Origin: Methanomassiliicoccales archaeon PtaU1.Bin124
GTDB taxonomy: Archaea > Thermoplasmatota > Thermoplasmata > Methanomassiliicoccales > UBA472
Assembly (NCBI GenBank): GCA_002067865.1
Contig: MVRC01000013.1
Coordinates: 124,001 to 188,000, forward strand
Reading direction: 5' to 3'
Length of the DNA stretch: 64,000 bases
The notes under the pieces: model-generated
Told to the model about the DNA's origin: nothing
What the model saw: only the letters and a program-made list of their open reading frames with translations
Database searches by the model: none
Program-made: the position numbers and the translations under genes
Part shown: positions 3,245-60,327 of the stretch, one piece after another
Numbering within the stretch: position 1 is the stretch's first letter
Layout: the number at the start of each line of letters is the position of its first letter

Positions 3245-3724
3245 TCAGGCCTCGGCGCTGCTCACGAGGACCTCATCGGAAAACCTCTCAAGCTCGGCCA
3301 GCTGCTTGTCGTAATGGTCCTTGGGGTCGAGGCTGATGATGAAGTTGTAGCTGTTGGCTCCCATCTTCTTCCTCGTCCGCTTTATTATGTTCAGCACCGG
3401 CTTGAAGCCGTTCCACATCTCCAGCACGTCCAGGCCGTTCAGGACCACGATGCCGTCCTCGTTCTCCATCAGGAACTGCTCCAGGTAGCCCTCGAACATG
3501 TTCAGGTTCATCGGCGGTATGCAGTCCCCTCCGGCGCGGGGCGACAGCCACTTAGTGGTCATCGGCTCCTTCAGGTCGCCGAACTGCGTCGCGATCAGGC
3601 TCGGTGAATGCTTCGATATGTACAGTGTCGGCCTTCCCCTGGCAAGCTCCTTCCTCAGTATCTGATGGGTGCGCAGCGGCACGCGTTCTTCGATCAGGTA
3701 CATCTTGCCGTTCTCGAACTTCAT
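3245..3724 (-). CDS. DUF835 domain protein
   Basis: A 159-residue protein consisting of one DUF835 domain, a family common in Thermoplasmata and other Euryarchaeota. It resembles a signalling or RecA/KaiC-derived fold without a P-loop. Diagnostic stretches are PTLYISKHSP, a WLS segment, the GIVVLNGLDVLEMWNGF core (matching the LLDGLEYL motif of relatives) and a closing FIISLDPKDHYDKQLAEL. ATG at 3724 is chosen because an AGGAGG lies eight bases before it; an in-frame ATG at 3745 would place that ribosome site inside the coding region. The same domain is fused to the isoleucyl-tRNA synthetase at 55911-60179. Function unknown. Confidence 0.82.
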   Translation of the reverse strand: MKFENGKMYLIEERVPLRTHQILRKELARGRPTLYISKHSPSLIATQFGDLKEPMTTKWLSPRAGGDCIPPMNLNMFEGYLEQFLMENEDGIVVLNGLDVLEMWNGFKPVLNIIKRTRKKMGANSYNFIISLDPKDHYDKQLAELERFSDEVLVSSAEA

Positions 3725-3976
3725 GCTAACTTTCCTCCTGATCATCGACCACCCCTTGTGAGTACTTCCCCCTTGTCCGCTTGGTCGGTGAACAATCCGC
3801 AGGACCGCCGCCGGAACGGCGGGAATTCGCCAAAAGTCAATGGAAAATTATCGCCATGTTACGAACGCCTGCGCTCCGTCAGCAAAAAGGAGGGCATGGC
3901 CAGCAGCAAAAAAAGAGCGGTTGTGGGAAAGATGAGATAAAGGAAAAAAATTATGGAAAGGTCCGCCGGAAGAGCG

Positions 3977-42044: not shown

Positions 42045-42237
42045 GGATATCGCCTCTCGAAAGGAATAATGATATAAAAAACTCCCCAGCAGGGGGTGAT
42101 AACCGTCCCGAACGCTTCTTATAATCACTTTATCAATAATGGAAAAACGACCAGACCCAGTCGTTTTTATTGAAATGAGATAACCAGTCGCAATCTTTTA
42201 TATATGGTCATTCTCAATCAAAGTGACAAGTGCTGGA

Positions 42238-42921
42238 ATGAATGATAAGGACCTGCGCCTGATGGCTTATCTCAAGGAATCCATCGGAGAACCAGCTAAG
42301 CCTGGGCCGATATTGCTTGACGTCAAGTCCACACAGTTCGTCCGTATCAACCTGCTACTTTTGAAGGCACTTTCTCCGGAGAATGGGATGCCAGGCATCT
42401 TCATCGCCATCGACCGTCCGCACCAGTACATGGTACATCTGCTGACGATGCACCAGATCAATTCCACCGGACTGGTATTCCTCGACGCCATCAGTCGATT
42501 TTCCGCGGACACGAAGACGGCCTCGGCCAAGGTGGGGTTCGTTCATGGGCCTTCGCACGTGGATGAGCTTCCCAACGCCATCAGGGAATGGTCCACCAAC
42601 GCCAACGGCAATTCGCTGGACATGCAGAGCCTGCGTTTCGCCATGATCGACAACCTGGCAGCACTTCTGACGTACAACAGCTATTCCAGCGTCGAGCTCT
42701 TCCTGCGCAACTTCGTGGGGGTCCTCTCCACCACCAAACTGGTGATCCCGTTCGTGGTCGACAAGGAGAGGAACTGCGTGCTCTACGAGATGGTGCGCTC
42801 CCTCTGTGAGAACGAGATAAGTGTGAACGAGAACGCCATTGCTGGAATGGGCGGCCAGATGCCGCCGCAAAGGCCACAGATGCCCCAGCAGAGGCCCAAT
42901 CAGATAACCCAGTTCAGATGA
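42238..42921 (+). CDS. P-loop-less RecA/KaiC-like protein
   Basis: A 227-residue protein that looks like a KaiC/RecA fold without Walker A. Its strand-helix pattern includes GIFIAIDRPHQYMVHLL, and a Walker-B-like FAMIDNLAALLTYNSYSS is present. The last 25 residues are rich in proline and glutamine. It overlaps the start of the real KaiC-like ATPase gene by four bases, so the two probably form a complex, active and inactive. A GTG 15 bases upstream (42223) is an alternative start nearer the TATA (42195-42206). Confidence 0.62.
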   Translation: MNDKDLRLMAYLKESIGEPAKPGPILLDVKSTQFVRINLLLLKALSPENGMPGIFIAIDRPHQYMVHLLTMHQINSTGLVFLDAISRFSADTKTASAKVGFVHGPSHVDELPNAIREWSTNANGNSLDMQSLRFAMIDNLAALLTYNSYSSVELFLRNFVGVLSTTKLVIPFVVDKERNCVLYEMVRSLCENEISVNENAIAGMGGQMPPQRPQMPQQRPNQITQFR

Positions 42922-43646
42922 GTGTGAAACAAGACATGATAGCCAACGATGCCTGCGCGAGAAAGAAGCCGGATATGGTAAGGCTGACGACCGGGATCCC
43001 GGGCCTGGATGAGATGATTGAAGGCGGGTTCCCATTCCCGTCAGTGATACTGTTGGCCGGCAGCGCCGGCACTGGCAAGACAACGTTCGCCATGAGGTAC
43101 CTCTGTGAAGGGGCGAAGCAGGGCGAGCAGGGACTGTATTTCACAACCCTGTCCGAGCCGACCCAGTGGATGTTGCGCTACGCCACTCAGTTCGACTTCA
43201 TGGACCCAGCCTACTTCAACGACCAGATCGTCTACTGCGACCTGGGCGACAAGCTGCGCGAAATGAACGAGAACGAGCTGCTGAACATGATGGAGGAGAA
43301 GATCGCCGAGGTCATGCCCCAGCGCATCGTAATCGACCCCATCACCGTCATCGGCAATTTCATGAAGGGCGACTACCGCCAGTTCCTCTTCGACCTCACT
43401 AACAGACTGAAGAACTGGAACGCCACCACGCTCATGACCGGCGAGGTGAAGCCGGGCGAGATCTATCCGCCGGAGGTCGCTTATGCCGCAGACGGCATCG
43501 TGCTTCTGATCCTATCGGAAGAGATGGGCGCGAGGCGCAAGTACCTCGAGGTGCTGAAGATGCGCGGCACGAACCACCAGACCGGCAAGCAGTCCATCGA
43601 CATATCCCGTCAGGACGGCATCGTCGTGCTGAAGGCCCGCTTCTGA
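42918..43646 (+). CDS. KaiC/RAD55-family ATPase
   Basis: A 242-residue RecA-like ATPase. It has the KaiC entry motif TTGIPGLDEMIEGGFPFPS, Walker A GSAGTGKTT (48-56) and Walker B RIVIDPITVIG. Such single-domain proteins are numerous in archaea and act in signalling or DNA repair; archaeal relatives include ArlH. The ATGA overlap with the upstream P-loop-less relative suggests a dedicated pair. No archaellum gene is near. Confidence 0.88.
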   Translation: MSVKQDMIANDACARKKPDMVRLTTGIPGLDEMIEGGFPFPSVILLAGSAGTGKTTFAMRYLCEGAKQGEQGLYFTTLSEPTQWMLRYATQFDFMDPAYFNDQIVYCDLGDKLREMNENELLNMMEEKIAEVMPQRIVIDPITVIGNFMKGDYRQFLFDLTNRLKNWNATTLMTGEVKPGEIYPPEVAYAADGIVLLILSEEMGARRKYLEVLKMRGTNHQTGKQSIDISRQDGIVVLKARF

Positions 43647-55910: not shown

Positions 55911-58900
55911 TTACAACGTGGCGTCGACCTCTTTCTCCAGCAGGTTCAGCTCATGCGGGTCCAGGGTGGACGGGTTCAGCGCCATGATCAGGATGGAGTG
56001 GTTGATCGCCACCTGGTCGCGCAGCGACTGGATGAACCTCAGGACCGTCAGGAAGTTGTTGTTGGTGATGAGGTATTCCAGGCCGTCCAGCAATATGACC
56101 CCGCCGTTGTTGGAGAGGAACTGCTCCAGCGAGTAGGACAGCTTCTCCAGGTCCTTCGGGCGCAACGAGTTCTCCTTGCCCACATTGCTCAGCCAGATCA
56201 TCTGAGCGTCACCGATCTGGTACTTGCTCTTGATCTTGACCGGGTAGTTGCGGGTGATGCAGAAGCCTTTCATGCCGATGCCGATGGTCTTCTCGAAGAA
56301 GGCGTAGGCCCGTTCGGACTTGTCCTCCTTGATCAGATAGCTGAAGGACTGCTCCAGCGCCTTGATCTCCATCGGTTGGGCCTGTACCGCTTGGGCCACC
56401 GGGGCCGCTGCGGCCGGCGCAGGCGCCGGTGCCTGGGCCTCCTCTTCCTCCACCGTGCTCACAATGACGGCCGCGCCGCACGAGGCGCAGGATAGCTGGT
56501 CGGGCATGACCGGCTTGCCGCAGTTGCGGCAGCTGATGGGCTTCTCCAGCAGTCCGTCCGAGACGTAGGTGAAGATCGACTCGAGCGTCTTGTTGCCCAG
56601 CCCCTTCACCGACGAAAGGTCGTCCTTGCTGGCGGACTTCAGCTTCTCCACGCTGTTGAAGCCGGAATCGTAGAGCATCTCCGCCTTCACCGGGTTCATG
56701 CGGGGGATGCGCCTCAGCATGATCAGCATCTTGTCCCGGGGCATGGCCGACGGGCCGGCGGTGGCGCACTTGGGGCACTTGCCCGTTTCGTCCAATGGCC
56801 CGCCGCAGGTGTTGCACTTGCCTCCGGTATCCATCCGGCTCAGCACGTGACAGATCTTCTTCGCCTCGGTCTTGCCCACGCCCGGTACGTTGGCCAGCTT
56901 GTCCTCGTCCAGGGCCTTGAGCGATTCGATGTTCTTATGGCCGGCCTCGACCAGTGCCAGGGCGATCTTCGAATTGACCCCCTGCACCTTCATCAGCTCC
57001 ACGATGGACTCGCGGATGTGCAGCGAGGTGACGGCCACCTCCAGCTTCTCGCCATCGATGTCCCAGTGCATCTTGTACTCGCCCCTGGGCTCGAGGAAGA
57101 ACTGCATCTTGCGGCAGCGCGTCTCCGACTTGATGTGCTCCTGCCAGATCTTGATGTACTCCTCGATCTTGGCCGGCGCGGACAGCTCCACGCTGACATA
57201 CTCCTCCACGTCCAGCTTCATGTCCTTGCGCATCTGCTGGATGCGGCGGATGATCTCTCGGGAGTAGCCCTCGGCCTCGATCTCGGCGGTGACTTCGAAG
57301 TCCAGGTAGATCTCGCCACCGGAATACTTCACCGCGACCACGTTCTCCGGGAGGGTCGTGACGAACGAGACCATGTTCTGCTCGATCTTGACGAACTGCC
57401 CTTCGATGCCCAGTTGGTACTCTCCCCGGTCCACGCTCTCCTTGATCATCTTGGCGGGGCGGGACTTGAGCAATATCGCGATCTTGCTGGCCCATTGCCT
57501 GTATACCTTCCCGATGGCGTTGGGGTTCGGCACGACGGTCAGGTTCGTCTCCGGCCACTGCTCGCCCGGCGCGACGTACTCGACCTTCTTCACGTTGGCC
57601 TGGGGCAGAAGTATCTGCTCCAGCGGCCTCATGGCCTCCATGGACTCCTTGGTGTTGGGCAGCAGGACCATCCTCTTCAGGGGCCAGCGCAGCTTCATGT
57701 TCCTGGCCTGGCGCTCCCTGGTGACGATCTCCACGACCTCCTTGACCACGTCCATGGCCGATTCCAGCCTCTCATCCACCTTGGTGAGGTCGGATCCGGG
57801 CCAGTCCAGCATATGGACCGAGTCCTTCCTTCCGTCCAGGTGCTTGTAGATGATGTCGGTGACGTGCGGGCAGATGGGCGCCAGCAGCAGGTTCAGGTCC
57901 GTGACCGTCTGGTACAGCGTGACGTAGGCGGCAAGCTTGTCCAGGTTGCCCTCCTCTTCCCACATACGGTCGCGGATCAGGCGGACGTACCAGCGGGAAA
58001 GGTCCTCCAGCACGAACTCCTCCAGCGCCCTGGTGGCCTTGTGCATGTCATAGGCGTTCAGGTCCCTGGTGACCTCGTTCTTCAACTTCTCCGTGCGGGA
58101 GACGAGCCACTTGTCCTCCGGCCTCATGTTGGCCATGACCCTCTCCGTGTCGACGGTGTCGATGTCGAAGTTGTCGATGGACATGTAGGTGGTGGCGAAG
58201 TTGACCACGTTCCACAGGACGTTCAGCATCTTGCGGGCGTTCTTCACACCCTCGTTCTGGAAGGATATGTCCTCCCATGGGGCCGATGAGCGCAGCAGAT
58301 AGAAGCGCAGCGAGTCCGCGCCGTAGTCCTTGACCACCTTCTCCGGCTCGATGACGTTGCCGCGGCTCTTGGACATCGGCAGGCCCTGAGGGTCCAGCAT
58401 CCAGCCGACCATGAGCACCGATTCGTAGGGGGCGCGACCGAACGCCATGACCCCCGCCGCCAGCTGCGAGTAGAACCACCCGCGGGTCTGGTCGTGGCCC
58501 TCGCAGATCCACTTGGCCGGCCAGAGCCTCTCGAACTCCGCCCTCTTGCGGGGGAACCCGAGCTGCGCCCAGGAAGCGACCGCAGAATCGAACCAGACGT
58601 CCAGGACGTCGGCGACGCGGCGCATCTCGCCCGAGCACTTCGGGCACTTGAACGTGACGTGGTCGATCCAGGGGCGGTGCAGGTCCATGTCGCTGCGGTA
58701 GCCGTCCCCCTTCTCCAGGTCCTCCGCGGTGGCGACGACCTTCATGTCGCCGCACTTCCCGCACACCCAGACCGGGATGGGGATGCCCCAGTACCTCTGC
58801 CTGGAGATGCACCAGTCGCGCGCGTTCATGACCCAGTCGTACTCACGCGATGACCCGGCCCAATCCGGGGTCCAGCGCACCCGCTCGATCTCCTCGAGCA

Positions 58901-60179
58901 TCTGGTTCTTGACCGCCGTGACCTTCAGGAACCACTGGTTGGTGGTACGGAAGATGATGGGCGACTTGCAGCGCCAGCAATGACCGTAACGGTGCGCGAT
59001 GGTGGTCTGGTAGAACAGGAAGCCCTTGTCGGTCAGGTCCTGCAGGATCATCGGGTTGGCCTTCTTGATGTGCAGCCCGTTGTACTTGGTGCCGATCTGG
59101 TCCGTGTACTTGCCGGACTCATCGACGGGGCAGAAGGGGGCGATGCCGTACTCCTTGCCCAGCTCGAAGTCCTCAGGACCAAAGCCCGGAGCGATGTGCA
59201 CCAGGCCGGTGTTCGAGGCCTCGACGGTCTTGGATGCTATGACGTGATGCACCCACTTGCCGGAGACCTCCTTCTGGTAAGGCACGACGTCCTCGAAGAT
59301 GGAGCGGTATTCCAGACCGACCAGGTCGTCGCCCTCCATCTCTTCCAGTATGTCATACCCTTCCCATCCGCCCAGGTCTCGGATGGATTCCACCAGGTCC
59401 TTCATGACGATGACCGTCTCGGTCTCGCCGATCCTGCGGAAACGGACCCTGACATACTTGAAGTCGGGATGGGCCGCCACGGCCAGGTTGGCCGGCAGCG
59501 TCCACGGCGTGGTGGTCCAGATGAGCAGGAACGTCTTCGAATCGTCCTTCAGCGGGAACTTGACGTAGATCGAAGGGTCCTTCTCGTCCGAATATTCGAT
59601 CTCCGCCTCGGCCAGCGCGGTCTCGCAGCGGGGGCAGCAGGGCAGCACCCTGTTGGCCTGCAGCAGCAGACCCTTGTCATAGGCCCTCTTCAGCGTCCAC
59701 CAGGCCGCCTCGATATAACTTGAGTTGATGGTGAGATAGGGATTGTCCCAGTCCATCCACACGCCGAGGTCCTTGAACTGCTCGTTCATCTTGCGCTGAT
59801 ACTCCACAGCGAAGTTCTTGCAGGTGGAGACGAAGCGGTCGATGCCGTACTCCTCGATCTCCTTCTTGTTCTTGACCCCGATGCTCTGCTCCACCTTGAC
59901 CTCGATGGGCAGGCCGTGCATGTCGTAACCGGGCTTGTCGAAAACGTTGAAGCGCTGCATGCGCTTGAACCGGAGGATGGTGTCCTTGATCGTCTTGTTC
60001 CAGGTCGTACCCAGATGGATGGAGCCGGTGGTGTACGGCGGCCCATCGACGAAATAGAAGTCCGGACCGGACGCCCGCAGCTCCTTCGTTCGTTTGTAAA
60101 CGTCTATTTTCTTCCAATCTTCCCTGATCTGCTTCTCGAGCTCGACAGGGTTGTAGTTTCCAGAGACTGGCTTTATCAT
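55911..60179 (-). CDS. ileS: Isoleucyl-tRNA synthetase with C-terminal HhH, zinc-ribbon and DUF835 extension
   Basis: A 1,422-residue protein read in one uninterrupted frame. The synthetase part (about 1-1060) has the class I HLGT motif (55-58, HIGH equivalent) and MSKSRGN (about 600), the editing domain, and the archaeal-type C-terminal domain with VTSLHIRESIVELMKVQG. After that it continues with a helix-hairpin-helix (ANVPGVGKTEAKKICHVL), a zinc ribbon (CNTCGGP-x5-CPKC), a second HhH (LSSVKGLGNKTLESI), another zinc ribbon (CRNCGKP-x7-CASCG), an alanine-proline linker and a DUF835 domain (GGVILLDGLEYLITNNNF). A normal archaeal IleRS ends near 1,060. Start ATG 60179 follows AAGG; 60206 is possible. 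The extension could tie tRNA charging to a signalling or nucleic-acid-binding function; this is inference. Confidence 0.94.
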   Translation of the reverse strand: MIKPVSGNYNPVELEKQIREDWKKIDVYKRTKELRASGPDFYFVDGPPYTTGSIHLGTTWNKTIKDTILRFKRMQRFNVFDKPGYDMHGLPIEVKVEQSIGVKNKKEIEEYGIDRFVSTCKNFAVEYQRKMNEQFKDLGVWMDWDNPYLTINSSYIEAAWWTLKRAYDKGLLLQANRVLPCCPRCETALAEAEIEYSDEKDPSIYVKFPLKDDSKTFLLIWTTTPWTLPANLAVAAHPDFKYVRVRFRRIGETETVIVMKDLVESIRDLGGWEGYDILEEMEGDDLVGLEYRSIFEDVVPYQKEVSGKWVHHVIASKTVEASNTGLVHIAPGFGPEDFELGKEYGIAPFCPVDESGKYTDQIGTKYNGLHIKKANPMILQDLTDKGFLFYQTTIAHRYGHCWRCKSPIIFRTTNQWFLKVTAVKNQMLEEIERVRWTPDWAGSSREYDWVMNARDWCISRQRYWGIPIPVWVCGKCGDMKVVATAEDLEKGDGYRSDMDLHRPWIDHVTFKCPKCSGEMRRVADVLDVWFDSAVASWAQLGFPRKRAEFERLWPAKWICEGHDQTRGWFYSQLAAGVMAFGRAPYESVLMVGWMLDPQGLPMSKSRGNVIEPEKVVKDYGADSLRFYLLRSSAPWEDISFQNEGVKNARKMLNVLWNVVNFATTYMSIDNFDIDTVDTERVMANMRPEDKWLVSRTEKLKNEVTRDLNAYDMHKATRALEEFVLEDLSRWYVRLIRDRMWEEEGNLDKLAAYVTLYQTVTDLNLLLAPICPHVTDIIYKHLDGRKDSVHMLDWPGSDLTKVDERLESAMDVVKEVVEIVTRERQARNMKLRWPLKRMVLLPNTKESMEAMRPLEQILLPQANVKKVEYVAPGEQWPETNLTVVPNPNAIGKVYRQWASKIAILLKSRPAKMIKESVDRGEYQLGIEGQFVKIEQNMVSFVTTLPENVVAVKYSGGEIYLDFEVTAEIEAEGYSREIIRRIQQMRKDMKLDVEEYVSVELSAPAKIEEYIKIWQEHIKSETRCRKMQFFLEPRGEYKMHWDIDGEKLEVAVTSLHIRESIVELMKVQGVNSKIALALVEAGHKNIESLKALDEDKLANVPGVGKTEAKKICHVLSRMDTGGKCNTCGGPLDETGKCPKCATAGPSAMPRDKMLIMLRRIPRMNPVKAEMLYDSGFNSVEKLKSASKDDLSSVKGLGNKTLESIFTYVSDGLLEKPISCRNCGKPVMPDQLSCASCGAAVIVSTVEEEEAQAPAPAPAAAAPVAQAVQAQPMEIKALEQSFSYLIKEDKSERAYAFFEKTIGIGMKGFCITRNYPVKIKSKYQIGDAQMIWLSNVGKENSLRPKDLEKLSYSLEQFLSNNGGVILLDGLEYLITNNNFLTVLRFIQSLRDQVAINHSILIMALNPSTLDPHELNLLEKEVDATL

Positions 60180-60327
60180 CGCCTTCAACTCCGCCCAATC
60201 GCGCATCCGTTTATGAATCTGACGGTTCTGGATTCTCCCGAGGCCGTCGCGTCGGCGATTGAACTGGGTGGGGTATGCACAATTGGTTAGATATAAACTG
60301 CCACATTTTTCTAGAAGCGGTGGAGGC

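Follow-up and report, generated by a model that had tools for sequence, protein, structure and literature searches.

The isoleucyl-tRNA synthetase (IleRS) of Methanomassiliicoccales archaeon PtaU1.Bin124 is encoded in a single frame with a C-terminal tail that ends in a DUF835 domain, and it is near certain that this fusion is real and ancient. The tail is probably part of a signalling network, as judged from comparisons of sequence. The gene lies in a stretch of 64,000 nucleotides from contig MVRC01000013.1, and this whole stretch is called the window here.

The ileS gene of the window and its spread

The initial annotation had described an IleRS joined in one frame to helix-hairpin-helix (HhH) motifs, two zinc ribbons and, after an Ala/Pro linker, a DUF835 domain. 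Each part of this description was confirmed by the open reading frame, by Pfam, by TIGR00392 and by the positions of the CxxC pairs. The frame has no internal stop and runs for about 371 codons beyond the normal IleRS end. Its features are as follows.

55911-60206, minus strand: ileS, isoleucyl-tRNA synthetase with C-terminal tail; single open reading frame of 1431 aa plus stop
57027-60206, minus strand: ordinary IleRS portion, residues 1-1060; HIGH, editing and KMSKS motifs intact
57027-57611, minus strand: DUF5915, residues 866-1060; native C-terminal tRNA-binding part of IleRS, directly after which the tail begins
56850-56999, minus strand: HhH unit 1, residues 1070-1119; Pfam HHH_5
56766-56816, minus strand: zinc ribbon 1 (CxxC...CxxC), residues 1131-1147; missing from many relatives
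56559-56735, minus strand: HhH unit 2, residues 1158-1216; Pfam HHH_5 at about 1160-1216
56478-56531, minus strand: zinc ribbon 2 (CxxC...CxxC), residues 1226-1243; Pfam match at 1224-1245; missing from many relatives
56352-56465, minus strand: Ala/Pro/Glu linker, residues 1248-1285; disordered in the model and fast evolving
55914-56336, minus strand: DUF835 domain, residues 1291-1431; KaiC-like by predicted fold, P-loop absent; constant element of the tail

The protein scored 982 bits against the ileS model TIGR00392 (curated cut-off, 621) and is thus a member of the IleRS family. Pfam placed tRNA-synt_1 at residues 27-649 (E 8e-129) and Anticodon_1 at residues 698-844, and the catalytic and editing motifs HLGT, MSKS, TTTPWTLP and HIAPGFGPED are intact. 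The DUF5915 part matched the IleRS of P. megaterium and yeast in Foldseek. A domain search of the tail, as the initial annotation had proposed, returned two HHH_5 matches, a zinc ribbon and DUF835 (PF05763), the last at residues 1295-1426 with an E value of 3e-34 and 118 bits (gathering cut-off, 33.1) over model positions 3-135 of 136. The CxxC pairs of the ribbons lie at residues 1131/1144 and 1226/1240. A structural model of residues 866-1431 (pTM 0.44) consisted of folded modules and a disordered linker with a local pLDDT of about 35, so that the DUF835 domain is probably free to swing.

We then looked at the spread of the fusion. A comparison of ileS lengths, also proposed by the initial annotation, gave two main classes of open frame among 400 Thermoplasmata genomes, one of about 985-1110 aa and one of about 1200-1700 aa. 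When the IleRS protein was read in 40 other genomes, 32 were tailed, from 18 families including the window's own (f1), and 8 were tail-less. For seven more families (f12, f16, f21, f26, f28, f29 and f32), assignment to the tailed form is by score and, in most cases, frame length alone. In a collection of named records, 67 of the best 80 DUF835 loci were in frame with an IleRS; the other 13 had truncated or interrupted ends, mostly still with IleRS or HhH tail sequence. One of these 13 (L100, RumEn M1) seems to carry a frameshift in its draft assembly. The 80 loci carried the record labels Thermoplasmata, Methanomassiliicoccales, Euryarchaeota or plain archaeon, with a single one labelled Terrabacteria. 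The latter (L150, VBAP01000157, Terrabacteria group bacterium) has an archaeal IleRS-DUF835 gene and is probably a misbinned contig. Sampled genomes of the phylum's other classes gave no match of comparable score. Two long DUF835 frames in those classes (G414:C22 and G403:C10) encode coiled-coil-like proteins, not IleRS.

In most of Thermoplasmata, the tailed form is thus the normal IleRS, though some lineages have lost it, and the fusion is not unique to a single genome, given the 18 families in which it was read. The initial annotation had known of no described case; none was found in the literature searched, a search that did not cover the mBio 2017 KaiC review. The idea that two genes were joined by an error of assembly or by a frameshift has nothing in its favour except that the window is one contig. 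Since the in-frame fusion is present in those 32 further genomes and 67 loci, an artefact is excluded for all practical purposes; moreover, the fusion recurs in dozens of independent assemblies and the whole frame is under purifying selection.

Conservation and fold of the DUF835 domain

DUF835 closes every tail, whereas the number of ribbons varies from 0 to 3 and that of HhH units from 0 to 2 across relatives; some tails have no ribbon, and one has neither HhH nor ribbon. The tail DUF835 (142 aa) is 49-85% identical between families. Mean identity among fused proteins was 61% in the catalytic parts, 54% in DUF835, 49% in DUF5915 and 25-30% in the HhH units. We calculated dN/dS for close pairs whose dS did not exceed about 0.6, leaving out distant pairs because their synonymous sites were saturated, and obtained 0.00-0.14 for DUF835, 0.02-0.12 for the catalytic core and mostly 0.3-0.5 for the linker. 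DUF835 thus evolves as slowly as the catalytic core, while ribbons and linker come and go. The suggestion of the initial annotation that nucleic-acid-binding HhH motifs and ribbons are combined with a signalling-like DUF835 therefore stands for the signalling-type domain on an essential synthetase; the nucleic-acid-binding reading becomes secondary, since HhH units and ribbons are variable and absent from some tails but DUF835 is constant. In L129 (UBA147), the tail extends well over 1000 residues past the native IleRS end and contains acidic stretches and TPR-like repeats among the HhH and ribbon units.

The model of the DUF835 domain (pLDDT 94.6) had ArlH/FlaH, the KaiC-like protein PH0284 and KaiC as its top PDB matches, which indicates a KaiC/RecA-like fold; in Foldseek, the comparison with FlaH gave an E value of 1.5e-6 and a TM-score of up to 0.77. 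No Walker A motif (P-loop) was present in IleRS-type DUF835 sequences, either in a set of 33 or in a set of 51 (84 in total), and the domain is for this reason likely to be iKaiC-like and not a KaiC-type ATPase. We therefore predict with high confidence that the tail DUF835 is a KaiC-like domain without P-loop. It would share its fold with the KaiC-like ATPases and ArlH (FlaH) but differs from them in lacking Walker A and in its size, about 140 residues versus about 230. A profile-profile (HMM-HMM) comparison of DUF835 with the KaiC proteins of its own genome was not significant (probability 1.7%), and the link to KaiC thus draws on fold and literature. RadA was considered as the origin of the HhH plus RecA-like tail and rejected: RadA/Rad51 appeared in the Foldseek list for the whole tail, but with an rmsd of 17-21, so that RadA and the tail have only the order of modules in common.

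In the literature searched, a single paper (PMC5847659) names DUF835, which it counts, as iKaiC, among the output domains of response regulators. These REC-DUF835 regulators belong to the same Pfam family, PF05763, and are also present in the window's genome. Their input is a receiver domain, whereas in the IleRS fusion a complete, catalytically intact tRNA synthetase occupies the place of the input.

A tailed IleRS paralogue without catalytic motifs

A second, tailed IleRS-like gene of 1302-1624 aa was found in family f11 (11 genomes of five genera; L173-L178, L180, L182-L184 and L233). One genome of family f34 (L189) has a similar gene of 1102 aa with a decayed N-terminal half. These proteins align along IleRS at 26-30% identity. 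In all genes checked, ten from f11 and the one from f34, HIGH, GYDMHGLP, KMSKS, DVWFDS, DQTRGWF and both editing motifs are missing. The domain layout is nevertheless kept: in three f11 proteins, Pfam recognized tRNA-synt_1 (E 1e-20 to 1e-44), Anticodon_1 (1e-26 to 1e-28), DUF5915, HHH_5 and DUF835. The f11/f34 paralogue is thus a pseudo-synthetase (pseudo-IleRS), while the window's gene is not. The same genomes encode a normal, tail-less IleRS of another type, which scored over the cut-off in 15 of 17 f11/f34 genomes and was present as fragments in two. The long f11 frames had first been taken as other synthetases.

Within the pseudo-IleRS group, identity was 59% in DUF835, 49% in DUF5915, 48% in HhH unit 1 and 42% in the anticodon domain, but only 35-37% in the catalytic parts and 31% in the CP1 editing domain. 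Compared to fused IleRS, the order of constraint thus appears reversed, with DUF835 highest and the CP1 editing and catalytic parts lowest. Since the tail is common to both, the dead copy likely derives from fused IleRS; the core tree is unrooted and the pseudo-IleRS are long-branched relative to fused and alternative IleRS, which limits their placement accordingly. Retention of the tRNA-binding half and the tail by a dead copy suggests that both have a function independent of aminoacylation. The initial annotation had proposed regulation of, or by, tRNA charging. Regulation of charging cannot be the whole story, since in one family the tail persists on a paralogue that has no catalytic motifs, and regulation by charging, that is, sensing, is favoured.

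Probable DUF835 network, losses of the tail and proposed function

The window's genome has 12 DUF835 matches, including REC-DUF835, two 7TM-DUF835, V4R-like-DUF835 and REC-PAS-DUF835 proteins, the domain names other than DUF835 being partly read by eye from the sequence. The relatives of the tail domain are thus signalling proteins, which bears out the earlier description of DUF835 as signalling-like. Some eight strong KaiC-like ATPase matches were also found in this genome, one of them within the window. Two genes of the window belong here; the second is the stand-alone DUF835 gene already reported near its start.

42918-43646, plus strand: KaiC-like ATPase, Walker A intact (GSAGTGKT); candidate member of the same network
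3245-3745, minus strand: stand-alone DUF835 protein of 166 aa; no more than a distant relative of the IleRS-type domain

The KaiC-like ATPase gene is overlapped by a gene at 42223-42921, whose product resembles a KaiC-like domain without P-loop. In a DUF835 tree, the IleRS-type and pseudo-IleRS domains, solo copies (f4, f19 and f23) and membrane proteins of family f13 formed one subfamily (support 84) separate from the other DUF835 domains, with inner forks that are unsure because of the few alignment columns. The f13 proteins (L185-L188) look like receptors: their N-terminal part is large and PEGA/cadherin-like, and they have a transmembrane segment and, at the C-terminus, an IleRS-type DUF835. 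Their long frames, too, had first been taken as other synthetases and are PEGA-type membrane proteins instead.

A Ras-family GTPase is tied to the DUF835 family by gene neighbourhood. The single Ras-like GTPase gene of the window's genome directly adjoins a V4R-DUF835 gene; the same arrangement was read in families f1, f3, f4 and f8, and further genomes of the order have coordinates consistent with it. The Ras-like gene of the pair (L219 = G000:C15; L220-L224) is the sole one in most Ras-bearing genomes of the order. Family f23 (L193-L195) has three genes in a row, for a solo IleRS-type DUF835, a conserved unknown protein of 150 aa and a Ras-like GTPase. In two f11 genomes (G086 and G039), the gene directly upstream of the pseudo-IleRS is Ras-like, with 44-77 bp between the frames. 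Three distinct DUF835 contexts (V4R-DUF835, solo IleRS-type and pseudo-IleRS) thus have a Ras-like neighbour in common. Canonical ileS has no KaiC, Ras or other DUF835 gene adjoining, so that the tie of the canonical IleRS itself to the network is indirect. Several relatives have a KaiC-like gene at a distance of 6-16 kb from ileS; we gave it no weight, since it is not constant, being absent near ileS in G156.

The tail was lost at least twice in Thermoplasmata, and within the order Methanomassiliicoccales, tail-less lineages are nested among tailed ones in the unrooted core tree. A separate-gene form of the extension, which the initial annotation had named as counterevidence, was sought among relatives and none was found. 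Tail-less relatives had either other DUF835 genes only or no match to the IleRS-type DUF835 model, the latter in G160 (f3-g15, 1.8 Mb) and in 62 of 66 f2 genomes, those outside g14. These 62 also had no strong KaiC match and no good Ras-like match except one odd 1174-aa frame (G316), and G160 showed the same joint absence. In f3-g21, tail and Ras gene are missing and KaiC is kept. Conversely, f2-g14 and f3-g25 keep the tail, shortened and without ribbons, and have no Ras gene. Both tail-losing lineages within the order also lack the Ras gene. These absences speak for a connection of the tail with the network, but there are only two or three losses, and the pattern is confounded with genome reduction in f2. 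Most f2 genomes are 1.0-1.9 Mb in size and whole families have disappeared from them, and tail, DUF835, KaiC and Ras might have vanished together in this gut-type family through shrinkage, with no functional tie. We consider this very unlikely, given that the joint loss recurs in G160, whose genome is not small, and that the Ras-DUF835 neighbourhoods are independent evidence for a tie.

We propose that the tail would be an ancient docking module in which DUF835, as a P-loop-less iKaiC domain on a flexible linker, joins IleRS to the KaiC-like ATPase/Ras-like GTPase/DUF835 signalling network of Thermoplasmata. The synthetase part would be the sensing head, whose tRNA(Ile)- or isoleucine-bound state is relayed via the tail, reporting isoleucine supply to the network. 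Docking is the well-supported part of this proposal; docking module and sensing head taken jointly have, in our estimate, an even chance of being correct. We infer that the partner would be a KaiC-like ATPase or the Ras-like GTPase, that the signal would run outward from IleRS and that its topic would be isoleucine charging. The most specific version is tentative and rather doubtful as a whole: IleRS, or the dead IleRS where another IleRS took over charging, would sense isoleucine or uncharged tRNA(Ile) and signal via its iKaiC tail to the Ras-like GTPase and/or the KaiC-like ATPase.

Alternatively, the tail might serve aminoacylation, HhH units and ribbons aiding tRNA binding and DUF835 oligomerizing IleRS or gating its activity, which would be regulation of charging only. 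Appended tRNA-binding domains are common in synthetases, RecA/KaiC-like folds oligomerize, and the HhH units and ribbons lie directly behind the native tRNA-binding domain. However, they are the least conserved parts and are missing from some tails where DUF835 stays, the tail-less close relatives (f2, f3-g15 and f3-g21) have an otherwise ordinary IleRS, and the pseudo-IleRS has retained its tail with all catalytic motifs gone, so that we regard this explanation as unlikely. Sensing is favoured over a charge-tuning tail for the same reason, as the dead copy keeps the tail. The flexible linker, the well-folded separate modules and the DUF835 subtype shared with the f13 membrane proteins would also fit a passive localization tag, by which IleRS or pseudo-IleRS is held on a scaffold, for instance a membrane receptor or a ribosome-associated assembly, and no information is passed. 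This seems distinctly improbable to us, since DUF835 relatives are output domains of sensors and a dead synthetase kept as full-length cargo would require a cargo function.

The closest functional parallels to sensing by IleRS are eukaryotic LeuRS and Gcn2, by likeness of logic and not by membership. LeuRS is a leucine sensor for Rag GTPase/mTORC1 (PMC5622079). It is a branched-chain synthetase of class I whose role as a sensor can be separated from catalysis and is linked to a small Ras-family GTPase, as would be the case for the IleRS fusion. It differs in having no fused KaiC-like domain and in being a eukaryotic LeuRS as opposed to an archaeal IleRS, and the GTPase link on the archaeal side consists in the gene neighbourhood of DUF835 relatives only. 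If the sensor reading is true, Thermoplasmata would have an archaeal counterpart of eukaryotic synthetase-to-small-GTPase amino-acid sensing. Most of an archaeal class has a signalling-type domain built into an essential synthetase, and there is a dead paralogue that would separate sensing from catalysis. The fusion offers a concrete test case for sensing of amino-acid supply in archaea. It is also one of few entry points to the inputs and partners of KaiC-like ATPases and DUF835 domains. Gcn2 has a HisRS-related, non-charging domain that reads uncharged tRNA and is joined to a signalling domain (PMC4335047). The f11 pseudo-IleRS resembles it in combining a non-charging synthetase-like module with a signalling domain, but Gcn2 consists of a kinase and a HisRS-like part, and pseudo-IleRS of a class I IleRS with putative tRNA binding and an iKaiC domain.

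In eight pseudo-IleRS loci whose downstream side was inspected, the gene is followed by a ketopantoate-reductase-like gene. The pseudo-IleRS loci are often near an MtaB-type tRNA methylthiotransferase gene. One pseudo-IleRS (L182, in G006) has some 240 extra residues after DUF835, very acidic and repetitive, with a C2H2-finger-like stretch inside.
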